Source: Tardiphaga sp. P9-11
GTDB lineage: Bacteria; Pseudomonadota; Alphaproteobacteria; Rhizobiales; Xanthobacteraceae
Length of the DNA stretch: 64,000 nucleotides
Direction: 5' to 3'
NCBI RefSeq assembly: GCF_008329525.1
Contig: NZ_NPKQ01000001.1
Coordinates: forward strand, 1,054,001-1,118,000
The number at the start of each line of letters is the position of its first letter. Position 1 is the stretch's first letter. The notes under the pieces are model-generated. The model saw only the letters and a program-made list of their open reading frames with translations, was not told where the DNA came from and did not search any database. The position numbers and the translations under genes are program-made. This document shows, in pieces, positions 534 through 53,286 of this stretch.

Positions 534-575
534 ATTCTGTGAGGATCACCGCGCGTCTATGTGCAGCGCAGGCGT

Positions 576-1274
576 CTATTCTTCCTCGTCGTCCTGCTTC
601 TTGCCGCCGCCGATACCCTTCAGCTTGGCGAACACGGCGTCGACATTGAGGTCGCCGCTGCCGCCTTCGGCGGTTTCGAACTCGTCCTTGCGGGTGGTTT
701 CCGAAGCCGGCAGCAGGGTCGCGCCGCCGTAGGCGTGATCGGTCGGCTTTTCCTTGGCGGCGCGCTGCACTTCGAAATCGAGTTCGATCTGCGAGCACAG
801 GCCGAGGGTTACCGGGTCCATCGGGGTCAGGGTCGAGGCATTCCAGTGGGTGCGGTCGCGGATCGAGGCGATCGTGGTCTTGGTGGTGCCAACCAGACGC
901 ATGATCTGGCTGTCCTTCAGTTCGGCATGGTTGCGGACCAGCCACAGGATCGCGCTCGGGCGCTCATGGCGGCGCGATACCGGGGTGTAGCGCGGGCCCT
1001 TCTTTTTGGCGGCCGGCGGCAGGATCACCTTGCTCTCTTCGAGCTTGAGCCGGTAATTCTTGTCCTGCTCGCCCTTTTCGATCTCGTCGCGGGTCAATTG
1101 CCCGTTGGAAATCGGATCCATGCCCTTGATGCCCTGAGCGGCGTCGCCGTCGGCAATGGCGCGGATCTCGAGCGGGTGCATCTTGGTGAAATCGGCGACC
1201 TGATCGAAGGTCAGCGCCGTATTGTCGACCAGCCACACGGCCGTCGCCTTTGGCATCAGCGGGGCATTGCTCAT
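576..1274 (-). CDS. trcR: DUF1013 transcriptional regulator (TrcR-type)
   Basis: The product is a 232-residue protein of the alphaproteobacterial DUF1013 family, now called cell-cycle transcriptional regulator TrcR. The ATG at 1274 is chosen because AAAGGAG lies just upstream (about 1281-1287); the frame stays open further 5' but lacks comparable signals. The first third (LTFDQVADFTKMHPLEIRAI) and a middle segment (LKDSQIMRLVGTTKTTIASI) both look like helix-turn-helix units, which fits a DNA-binding role. The C-terminus is a glycine-rich linker followed by an acidic tail (KKQDDEEE). The gene stands alone, divergent from ispH, and ends at the shared terminator. The exact regulatory role here is unknown. 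Confidence 0.85.
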   Translation of the reverse strand: MSNAPLMPKATAVWLVDNTALTFDQVADFTKMHPLEIRAIADGDAAQGIKGMDPISNGQLTRDEIEKGEQDKNYRLKLEESKVILPPAAKKKGPRYTPVSRRHERPSAILWLVRNHAELKDSQIMRLVGTTKTTIASIRDRTHWNASTLTPMDPVTLGLCSQIELDFEVQRAAKEKPTDHAYGGATLLPASETTRKDEFETAEGGSGDLNVDAVFAKLKGIGGGKKQDDEEE

Positions 1275-47654: not shown

Positions 47655-48484
47655 CTATTTGGGCGCCATCTTCTCCAGCGCTGCGCGCTTCCACAGATCC
47701 CAGGCCCGGCCATGGATCTGGTCGATGACGCCAAGCGTTTTCTGGCTTTCCTCGCCCAGCAGATAGCTCACCGATCCGCCCAGCGCGAGCGCTTGTGACT
47801 GCAACTGTGCATTCACATTGCTGTAATGGGCGCGAAACACCGCCATTGGAATGGTGGCGGCAACGACGACGCTGCCATGGCCTCGCATCAGCGCCACACT
47901 GCGGTCGCCGAGCGTTGTGGCCAGCGCCTTGCCCAATTGTGCGTTGCTGACCAGCATATTGCTCATGCCGCGCTGTCGCGGATCTCGAACACCGGCACTT
48001 CGGGAAATAGGAATGCGCCGAGGTGGAACACTGGCCGCAGCGGCGTGCTGCTGACGCTGAAGGGAATGATCCCGGGCGAATGCGTGTGGACGACGGCTTT
48101 GACGTCCGGCCGCGCCTTGTAGATCTCGCCATGGATAAAGCGCTCGAGAAAGCTCGCGCGTCCCTTCGCATCGACGGGATTGGAATCGAGGTCGTATTCC
48201 ATGATGTCGTCGGCGGTGACCAGCGCCGGAGCTAGCGAGCGTCCCATCAAATAGCGGTTGGGATCGGTCGGGTGACGCATGCTGACATGGCCGAACCCGT
48301 CGATGACATTGAGGTCGGTGAGGACGCGGTTCGCCACTACGAGGTCTTGCATCAATGCCGGATCGACGGGACCGGCAGATGTTGGTGCGGGGGCCTGCGC
48401 TGCGGTTTGTGCGGAGGCCGGTTGCAAGGAGAGTGCGAACACCATTGCCAGCAGCATTGGCGCAGCCGATCGTGTCGACGCCAT
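47655..48484 (-). pseudogene. Class II aldolase/adducin-family protein, frameshifted
   Basis: The two halves of a class II aldolase/adducin-type protein lie in different frames. The first (from ATG 48484, after GGGAGGAC) has a signal peptide, then LMQDLVVANRVLTDLNVIDG, GFGHVSMRHP and AVVHTHSPGIIPF with the metal-binding His. It ends EIRDSAA-stop at 47963. The second begins at ATG 47966 (SNMLVSNAQLGKALATTLGD, RGHGSVVV) and finishes the fold. Inserting one G (GCGGCATGAGC to GCGGGCATGAGC) restores EIRDSAGMSNMLV. So a one-base deletion, or a sequencing error, broke the gene. The 4-base overlap ATGA may still allow two-part expression. Confidence 0.85.
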
Positions 48485-48535
48485 TGTAGTCCTCCCCATT
48501 GCCGAACCGGCGGTTGATCCGCCGTGCTCGCTATA

Positions 48536-51841: not shown

Positions 51842-53065
51842 TCAGACCGATCCTGTGTTTCCAGCGATCGAGGCAGCCACCAGTTTCTGGGTGATGCCTT
51901 GTCCGCTCAGCAGGCGGACAGCCGGACTTCTTGTTTCGGGAAAGATGGCCAGCAGGGTGTTTGACCCTTTCACTTCAGACCAGCCGAGCTCCTGCGCGTG
52001 AACCGCAGCACGCTGAGACACACGCACGAATGCTGCCGTCGGCTGACCGTTCTTGCCGGTCTCGATCATCAGATTTTTGAGTTCCTTATCGAGGTAGCGG
52101 ATCAGGTCGGCTTTCAACGTGCCGAAATCGGCATTGCAATCTCGCAGCACCGCCGCAGCATCGGTGTCATCGACCAGTGCAAGCAACAGGTGCTCCAATG
52201 TTGCATATTGATGGCCTCTCTGGTCGGCATATTCGATAGCGCGTCGCCGTGTCGCGTGAAGCGCGGGCGAAAGCGGCAGCGTCGACAGGTCGATAAGGGC
52301 ATCGGCGCTTTTCAGCCTCTTCACTGGATCGAGGGTCGCTAACAGCTTCTGCTTTTCGCTGATCGGCAGGACGATATGCGAGGCGATGACATCGGCAACC
52401 CGTCCGGGGTCGAGGGTTCTTTCCAGTGGCGGCCAAATCGGAGGTACGCGCATGTCGTGAGCCGCAACGTAGCTCTCGAATCGTTTGACTGCCTGCTGGA
52501 TCAGTTCGGGCTCATCGGGAATAGGACCCTCACTCACGCCTGTAACGTCGGCTCTGTACGAGCCGGTCTCGCCTACGAAACGCTGAATCACGACGCGTTG
52601 GCGTCCCTGTGCCAGAACCCTGAGCGTGCCGTCATCAAGTCTTTGAATTTCAAGCAACTGGGCGAGAACGCCAATGTCGTAGATGTCCTCGAAACCAGGT
52701 TCATCAACAGTTTCGTTCTTTTGAATAGCAAGCACGACCTCTCGCTGCCGCTCGAAGGCATCTTTCAGAGCGAGTATCGTTTTCTCCCGTCCGACAAAAA
52801 GCGGGTAGGTCGTTGTCGGGAACGGAACGAGATCTCTCAGCGGAATGGCCGGGTAACTTGCTATTCCGGTTTGAAGCTTGATAACCGGCGTTTGCGGCGA
52901 ACTTCGACCGACCTGCAGCATCGCCGACAAGGTATTCCAGTCAGCGATACCCAATATTCTCGATATCAGCTCCAGGCTTTCGCTGTGACTGATCGTGACG
53001 GCTTTGGTAGAGAGGTTTTCGCGCAGGGTCTGCGCCATAGCCTTTGCATCGCGAAAATCGCGCAT
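51842..53065 (-). CDS. Lon-N/ClpA-N domain fusion protein without ATPase
   Basis: A 407-residue protein with three parts. Residues 1-50 (FRDAKAMAQTLRENLSTKAV, ISHSESLELISRILGIADWN) match a small helical domain sometimes named glyoxalase-superfamily. Residues 71-258 match the Lon substrate-binding N-domain (YPAIPLRDLVPFPTTTYPLF, DIYDIGVLAQLLEIQRLDDG). Residues 265-397 match the ClpA/ClpC N-domain (LHATRRRAIEYADQRGHQYA, TLEHLLLALVDDT, SEVKGSNTLLAIFPETRSPA). There is no Walker motif and no protease motif. So it can bind substrates or adaptors but not unfold them. The start at 53065 follows AAAGGA. It is placed after actS on the same strand (221 bases). Its function is not known to me; a proteolysis adaptor or sink is an inference. 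Confidence 0.75.
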   Translation of the reverse strand: MRDFRDAKAMAQTLRENLSTKAVTISHSESLELISRILGIADWNTLSAMLQVGRSSPQTPVIKLQTGIASYPAIPLRDLVPFPTTTYPLFVGREKTILALKDAFERQREVVLAIQKNETVDEPGFEDIYDIGVLAQLLEIQRLDDGTLRVLAQGRQRVVIQRFVGETGSYRADVTGVSEGPIPDEPELIQQAVKRFESYVAAHDMRVPPIWPPLERTLDPGRVADVIASHIVLPISEKQKLLATLDPVKRLKSADALIDLSTLPLSPALHATRRRAIEYADQRGHQYATLEHLLLALVDDTDAAAVLRDCNADFGTLKADLIRYLDKELKNLMIETGKNGQPTAAFVRVSQRAAVHAQELGWSEVKGSNTLLAIFPETRSPAVRLLSGQGITQKLVAASIAGNTGSV

Positions 53066-53286
53066 CTGTTTCGTCCTTTGCATGAGCGAACCAGGAGGCA
53101 TCAGGTGGTTGCGTTGCTGACCCGGTCGCTCGGACAAAGGGTGTCGGCAAAGGAAGTGATACGTTCACCGTCCCGTTCAGGGCGCAACCGGCAGGTCGTA
53201 TCAACCAAGATAAAATTGGCTCAAACGCGTCTAGCTGTCAATGAGATGCAACTGTCGGCTGGGTTCACGCGACAGTGAGAATTGTA

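Follow-up and report, generated by a model that had tools for sequence, protein, structure and literature searches.

A Lon-N/ClpA-N fusion protein without ATPase or protease domains, encoded behind a structured leader RNA in Tardiphaga sp. P9-11: a possible translationally controlled decoy

The fusion gene and its product

The stretch of 64,000 nucleotides (nt) from Tardiphaga sp. P9-11 that was analysed here (hereafter the window; contig NZ_NPKQ01000001.1, positions 1,054,001 to 1,118,000) carries a gene for a protein of 407 amino acids (aa) in which a small N-terminal module is joined to the substrate-binding N-domain of Lon and to the N-domain of ClpA, and which is preceded by a structured leader RNA (Table 1). 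The gene begins with ATG; a TTG lies 24 codons upstream in the same open frame. Pfam scans bear out the three-domain layout given in a preliminary description of this DNA, with matches to the N-part of PF20066, to PF02190 and to PF02861, and Pfam and NCBIfam scans likewise bear out the absence of ATPase and protease domains noted there. The PF02190 match reaches 144 bits against a curated cut-off of 28.7 and spans profile positions 2-193 of 200, that is, the whole domain, and the PF02861 Clp_N match (residues 277-325, E = 1.7e-14) scores 54.1 bits against a cut-off of 20.7. The PF20066 match is confined to profile positions 3-57 of 143. In NCBIfam, the N-parts alone of Lon (E = 4.6e-32) and of ClpA (residues ~269-399, E = 5e-19) are matched, far under the whole-protein cut-offs, with ClpA being the best match for the C-terminal domain among the Clp proteins.

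Table 1. Features of the fusion gene and its leader in the window
Feature	Position	Strand	Description
Promoter -35 box	53236..53241	-	TTGACA, 29 nt before the first base of the leader
Structured leader RNA	53066..53206	-	~141 nt, ends directly before the ATG; model R1, covariation, fold
Helix P1	53158..53202	-	GATAC 53202-53198 with GTATC 53162-53158
Long-range helix P4	53107..53189	-	Crosses P1; GGTTGCG 53189-53183 with CGCAACC 53113-53107
Helix P7	53075..53140	-	CCTTTG 53140-53135 with CAAAGG 53080-53075; would cover the Shine-Dalgarno AAAGGA (53079-53074)
Fusion gene	51842..53065	-	407 aa: module, Lon-N and ClpA-N, no ATPase, no protease
N-terminal module, presumed helical	52907..53065	-	Residues ~1-53; N-part of PF20066 Glyoxalase_8; Pfam E = 2.4e-12, alignments
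Lon substrate-binding N-domain	52307..52855	-	Residues 71-253; PF02190 LON_substr_bdg; Pfam E = 7e-42
ClpA-type N-domain	51869..52261	-	Residues ~269-399; NCBIfam ClpA profile 5-135; PF02861 first repeat 277-325

The protein therefore does not qualify as a Lon protease, since only positions 11-200 of the 784-position profile match and both the AAA+ ATPase and the Ser-Lys peptidase are missing, nor as a ClpA, which has two AAA+ modules and docks to ClpP, since only positions 5-135 of 734 match. A split AAA+ gene continuing in an adjacent frame was rejected: no AAA+ protease or peptidase domain was found in the eight neighbouring frames scanned, and a comparison with the ATPase/peptidase part of Lon showed no similarity among the open reading frames (ORFs) of 80 aa or more at 79 homologous loci. 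None of the PADLOC families of anti-phage defence profiles matches the protein. The genome encodes its own Lon (open frame 846) and its own ClpA (open frame 814) elsewhere, the latter shortly preceded by a clpS frame (PF02617, E = 2.4e-35). The Lon-N part of the fusion is 33% identical to the genome's own Lon across the domain, and the ClpA-N part is 48% identical to the N-domain of its own ClpA.

A module with exchangeable partners

The first ~55 residues form a separate unit, present in 97 of 297 genomes of the order, of which the segment MRDFRDAKAMAQTLR is near-invariant in alignments of Lon-N and ClpA-N forms. We assume from its sequence that the module is helical; a PDB search with the module profile returned no chain at E<=0.5, ClpC2 included. 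We classified, by similarity, 169 module proteins for which no less than 150 nt of DNA upstream of the gene was available, near-copies included. The partner of the module is Lon-N in 54 of them, a VOC/glyoxalase domain in 34, Lon-N plus ClpA-N in 32, a KOW-like domain in 21 and a jelly-roll-like domain in 11 (the last two names being assigned by eye), and the rarer classes comprise a ClpX zinc finger (5), DUF3471 (5), ClpA-N alone (3), pentapeptide repeats (2) and unclassified partners (2). Because the window protein served as one query, the sample is tilted toward Lon-N forms. Pfam confirmed zf-C4_ClpX in L118 (E = 3e-19), L127 and L124, Clp_N in L112, L109 and L162, DUF3471 in L123, Glyoxalase_7 in L147 and L184 and Pentapeptide in L180. 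Three machines, Lon, ClpA and ClpX, are thus represented in the leader-module group, each by its recognition part. DUF3471 is the C-terminal lipocalin-type domain of Pab87 in Pfam. Pab87 is described as a self-compartmentalizing protease in PMC2651629, which does not give the DUF number. The VOC members come nearest to bleomycin-binding families, with scores far below the NCBIfam cut-offs, and the pentapeptide member is near several families including Qnr, with type III effector and heterocyst families scoring better and all of them below the cut-offs.

A standalone ClpX zinc finger was tried as a mark of the family and rejected as unspecific: in 23 genomes chosen for at least two zinc-finger matches, a module match coincides with only 4 of 53 matches (in G021, G114, G143 and G320), and frame length marks about half of the 53 as ClpX itself. 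Short-frame ClpX-type zinc fingers were seen in the module-free genomes G085 (contigs C2 and C3; four matches, in two pairs), G098:C15, G446:C236, G464:C4 and G482:C1. One module+Lon-N protein (L110, 730-1761, minus strand) shows an apparent internal duplication in Lon-N (RFESY...DPGRVADII repeated).

Structure of the leader RNA

The DNA upstream of the start codon is conserved across genes of differing architecture. We aligned 53 leaders with MAFFT without reference to structure (alignment A2) and then named a structure with crossing helices, which is well supported: 82.5% of the cells are paired, 31 of 39 pairs change on both sides, none of 500 shuffles comes up to this in any of the five measures used, and the pairing falls to 35-47% when the partner strand is shifted by 1-3 columns. 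The strongest helices are P1, with 98.9% of cells paired and covariation in 5/5 pairs, and the long-range helix P4 that crosses it, with 96.5% paired and covariation in 5/7 pairs; in other leaders P4 is of the GCTTGCG/CGCAAGC or GCCTGCG/GCAGGC type. Both recur in 40 held-out leaders that lay outside the model. Each P1 pair forms in 36-40 of the 40 rows, six of the seven P4 pairs form in 39 and the seventh, last pair in 26, and the three pairs of the short helix P2 form in 40, 26 and 39, P4 and P2 having had no part in the model that aligned these rows. The held-out set contains near-copies (for example, L233 repeats L184, and L118 resembles the training row L159) and two rows, L251 and L277, that are not good leader genes.

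The two outer pairs of P7 are 93% paired and its four inner pairs 70%; P3, P5, P6 and inner P7 are weaker helices, with only 69-74% of cells paired. The minimum-energy fold of the window leader also places the Shine-Dalgarno sequence in a stem, with an alternative CCUUUG at 53153-53148. The fold z-score of this leader is modest (-2.25; 3 of 200 shuffles were as good). Rfam 15 gave no gathering-level match in the window, where two chance-level matches at E<=5 lie around the leader, and no match in seven loci of other architectures. A general extension of the protein into the upstream region was rejected: of 146 leaders belonging to distinct proteins, with 23 KOW-like or unclassified ones set aside, 121 contain an in-frame stop in the 141 nt before the ATG.

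Transcription of the leader probably starts near its first base, as suggested by the near-fixed -35 box: 104 of 122 leaders have TTGAC in their -35 region, where shuffles predict 2.2, and in 101 of those 104 it lies inside a range of 5 nt. A general-stress (EcfG-like) promoter was rejected, the pattern GGAA[CT]-N15-19-CGTT occurring in 0 of 169 upstream regions as compared to 1.0 expected.

Linkage of the leader to module and MATE genes

The leader model R1 matches the window at 53067-53225 with 132 bits, and in 80 of 80 sources (the window and the 79 loci) its match ends no more than 3 nt from the start codon of the module. The window leader is one of the 53 training rows of R1, and 22 others come from the 79 loci. 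In 70 further sources the leader was found 69 times, and all VOC-type members scanned with R1 carry it; many leaders of the two sets taken together had served in training. Across the 297 genomes, 77 leader matches were identified in 66 genomes, 70 of them within 200 nt upstream of a module match; among the other seven, four are separated from the module match downstream by about 1.4-1.5 kb and three have none within 2.5 kb. The top-scoring 55 of 116 module matches all have a leader, as do 19 of the remaining 61; the weaker matches are largely KOW-like and most are without a detectable leader. The counts 55/55 and 80/80 hold partly by construction, because the training set of R1 consisted of leaders upstream of module genes, often in those same genomes; this does not apply to the test on the 40 held-out rows. 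Searches with R1 over more than 40 genomes used stricter filters, with loss of weak matches.

Five of the seven leaders that do not directly precede a module gene precede a gene for a MATE efflux protein. In the four gapped cases (L275, L276, L280 and L187, the MATE frame of the last being cut at its start), the MATE frame lies between leader and module; in G209:C1 (L273), the leader precedes a MATE gene with no module match within 2.5 kb, and the encoded protein exceeds the NCBIfam cut-off for MATE efflux transporters. In a sample from the whole phylum, MATE genes follow the leader in L307, L309, L310 and L311, with a module match ~1.4 kb beyond in L310 and L311. A leader match in G241:C165 falls inside an open frame of 422 codons and is probably false, and the phylum search gave a weak hit of 27.8 bits in G657 to which no convincing gene could be assigned.

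Several other observations concern these loci. The module match that follows the MATE gene in L275, L276, L280, L310 and L311 is KOW-like where classified. A leader of 118 bits in L251/L278 (G279:C13:61704-61866) has no intact module gene behind it and may be an orphan or a decayed copy. A second, shorter leader-like match (61 bits; 542-646, plus strand) was seen in L060, ~5.2 kb upstream of the gene's own leader.

A tree of 90 non-redundant rows of leader plus module DNA (KOW-like, unclassified and near-duplicate rows left out; a quick search, midpoint-rooted for drawing) places all protease-domain rows on one branch of 48 rows, with an SH-aLRT support of 93, which is below the program's mark of 95. 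This branch holds Lon-N (28), Lon-N+ClpA-N (8), DUF3471 (5), zinc-finger (4) and ClpA-N (3) forms, and the remaining 42 rows (29 VOC, 11 jelly-roll-like, 2 pentapeptide) have no protease domain. The partner labels need 16 changes on the tree, as opposed to a mean of 50.7 after shuffling. Given this grouping, it seems likely that a single module lineage picked up the recognition domains of Lon, ClpA and ClpX.

Distribution and genomic setting

Among 61 genomes, the uninterrupted three-domain protein is found in 8 of 18 of the same genus (the present one included) and in none of the 43 others. A ninth genome of the genus, G016, has the fusion gene in two frames; the gene (L005, G016:C1:4384441-4385654) is broken near the start of the ClpA-N part. 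Full three-domain matches occur in 27 of the 79 fetched loci, nearly all labelled Tardiphaga or Bradyrhizobium, the nearest named relatives being two Tardiphaga robiniae strains and Bradyrhizobium sp. NFR13 with 94-96% identity. The form with module and Lon-N is found in Bradyrhizobium, Mesorhizobium, Rhizobium, Phyllobacterium, Neorhizobium, Agrobacterium and others, and L109 encodes module and ClpA-N without Lon-N. No shared operon partner emerged, as no ORF cluster spans more than 31 of the 79 loci (single-linkage clusters of ORFs of at least 100 aa, the gene itself and overlapping ORFs excepted).

The lower G+C content (GC) noticed in the preliminary description is real: 0.54-0.58 in the gene, as opposed to 0.59-0.67 at 46-51.7 kb and 53.25-55.5 kb, with a second fall to 0.57 near 55.5-56.7 kb. 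None of 81 plasmid records and none of 10 phage records reached 80% coverage of the query; the module+Lon-N form is present on plasmids of Agrobacterium, Rhizobium and Phyllobacterium. On the conjugative plasmid pAt3 of Agrobacterium fabrum (L305, NZ_CP048563.1:4224-5045), the module+Lon-N gene comes next after repABC in a gene table that is possibly incomplete. Elsewhere in the window, a class II aldolase/adducin domain (47655-48499, minus strand) is split over overlapping frames as if frameshifted, 47963-48499 corresponding to profile positions 1-127 and 47655-47966 to positions 130-182.

A possible decoy and its alternatives

Our preferred, if tentative, reading is that the 407-aa protein is a non-catalytic, translationally controlled decoy, or sponge, for molecules that bind Lon-N and ClpA-N. 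The gene would be transcribed from a sigma-70-like promoter into the structured leader, whose pseudoknotted fold would hold the Shine-Dalgarno sequence in a stem and keep translation off until a signal opens that stem. The Lon-N and ClpA-N copies, attached to the module as the constant part of the family, would then trap ligands of the N-domains of the genuine Lon and ClpA, which might be a toxin, a protein of foreign origin, or an adaptor or substrate present in excess. We favour a sponge because only recognition domains are present, because several other partners look protective, and because ClpC2 provides a precedent. This mycobacterial protein, as described in PMC10030653, consists of a helical N-terminal domain and a domain like the N-terminal domain of ClpC1; it binds cyclomarin and confers protection against this toxin, which also relieves its repression. 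Protective roles are known or have been suggested for the products of other leader genes (VOC proteins, pentapeptide repeats and MATE pumps). Of the three roles offered in the preliminary description (a tether from Lon substrates to ClpAP, a competitor for ClpS, a decoy), which included neither the swappable partners nor the RNA leader, the decoy fits best.

Several observations weigh against a decoy. The helix that would cover the Shine-Dalgarno sequence is less well supported than P1 and P4. Conserved ClpA-N columns that are kept in at least 80% of the fusions number only 35 of 84. One zinc-finger member, L124, has no leader match (the sole exception among the 70 further sources), and ClpX-type zinc fingers often occur in the same bacterial family unattached to the module. 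The likenesses to bleomycin-binding and Qnr proteins lie far under the NCBIfam cut-offs, and it is not obvious how the jelly-roll-like, DUF3471 and KOW-like partners would suit a decoy. Finally, we know of no toxin that targets Lon-N or ClpA-N of these bacteria.

A rather doubtful alternative is an adaptor or tether, in which the ClpA-N copy would bind ClpS and the Lon-N copy would bind Lon substrates, so that clients would be passed to ClpAP or ClpS would be competed for. The ClpA residues that contact ClpS are E23, E28, T81, R86, R90 and R131. An adaptor or ClpS competitor is conceivable because these are mostly kept: E28 in 33, T81 in 31, R86 in 33, R90 in 29 and R131 in 24 of 33 fusions (near-copies included), and a clpS frame is at hand before clpA. 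E23 is kept in just 1 of the 33, though the genome's own ClpA also has Q there. The composition of the family also speaks against this alternative. Proteins with Lon-N as sole partner make up the largest class sampled (54 of 169, the window protein having been used as a query for part of the sample), and others have only ClpA-N or only the zinc finger; tethering of Lon substrates to ClpAP is therefore excluded as the general function of the family.

An improbable alternative is a self-regulating sensor, in which the module would bind the leader RNA and the C-terminal domain would release the module upon capturing a ligand. The presence of the leader before all 55 best module matches, whatever their C-terminal partner, agrees with this, as do leader-MATE genes without an adjacent module (G209, G555, G682) in genomes that have the module elsewhere, and the finding that ClpC2 represses its own promoter and that the toxin releases this repression (PMC10030653). 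However, common descent of leader and module as a 5' cassette explains the linkage equally well, the figure of 55/55 is partly due to training rows, a leader could be detected for no more than 19 of the 61 weaker module matches, and no solved homologue reveals the role of the module. Similarly unlikely, to our mind, is a leader that acts as a metabolite riboswitch or RNA thermometer above general stress factors without decoy function: it would account for the pseudoknot, for the stem over the Shine-Dalgarno sequence and for MATE pumps under the leader, reminiscent of exporters under guanidine riboswitches (PMC7736828), and the conserved, covarying structure is one expected of riboswitches (ligand binding being a separate matter), but it leaves the recruitment of three protease recognition domains by one module group unexplained.

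The decoy reading has a bolder version, which we consider quite unlikely, namely a one-component, RNA-based protection in which the module holds the leader shut and capture of a toxin by the C-terminal domain frees it. The variable C-terminal domain would either imitate the part that the toxin attacks (Lon-N, ClpA-N, ClpX zinc finger) or provide a binding fold (VOC), and the freed leader would allow production of the sponge itself and, in some genomes, of the MATE pump too. Exchange of the C-terminal domain, with leader and module left as they are, might give rise to new specificities.

If the decoy reading is true, Alphaproteobacteria possess a leader RNA without an Rfam entry that is tied to a domain family recruiting from three AAA+ proteases, an orphan regulatory RNA with a searchable signal. 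It would offer a new approach to the ways in which bacteria protect or adjust proteolysis, and possibly an instance of modular self-protection, with the target mimic serving as sensor and sponge at once. Whether or not the protein is a decoy, the RNA is a new regulatory element that can be tested.

Comparison with known systems

Neither the leader nor the fusions are named in any title or abstract opening that we found in the open-access literature, subscription papers being outside this scope, and the passages searched of a paper on Bradyrhizobium start sites (PMC4842269) name no such element. ClpAPS is treated in PMC9663308.

The closest matches in domain content are the proteases themselves. 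The fusion shares the whole substrate-binding domain with Lon but has neither its AAA+ module nor its Ser-Lys peptidase. With ClpA it shares the N-domain, including most of the ClpS contacts, but it has lost many conserved ClpA-N columns and, being without ATPase rings, would not dock to ClpP. Proteins of PF20066 Glyoxalase_8 and PF19581 Glyoxalase_7 share the module and have a VOC fold or a KOW-like domain as the C-terminal partner. The guanidine riboswitch classes likewise place a structured 5' leader before exporter genes, whereas the window leader has no Rfam match and precedes different partner genes.

The nearest parallel in layout is ClpC2, in which a small helical N-terminal domain is also followed by a Clp N-domain without ATPase; the likeness is one of layout, toxin binding being known for ClpC2 alone. 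According to PMC10030653, ClpC2 binds the promoter DNA of its own gene and so represses it, and the transcript is suggested to be leaderless. In contrast, the window gene encodes a protein whose module profile matches no ClpC2 chain, and it combines an RNA leader of ~141 nt with an added Lon-N domain and, across its family, with swapped partners.
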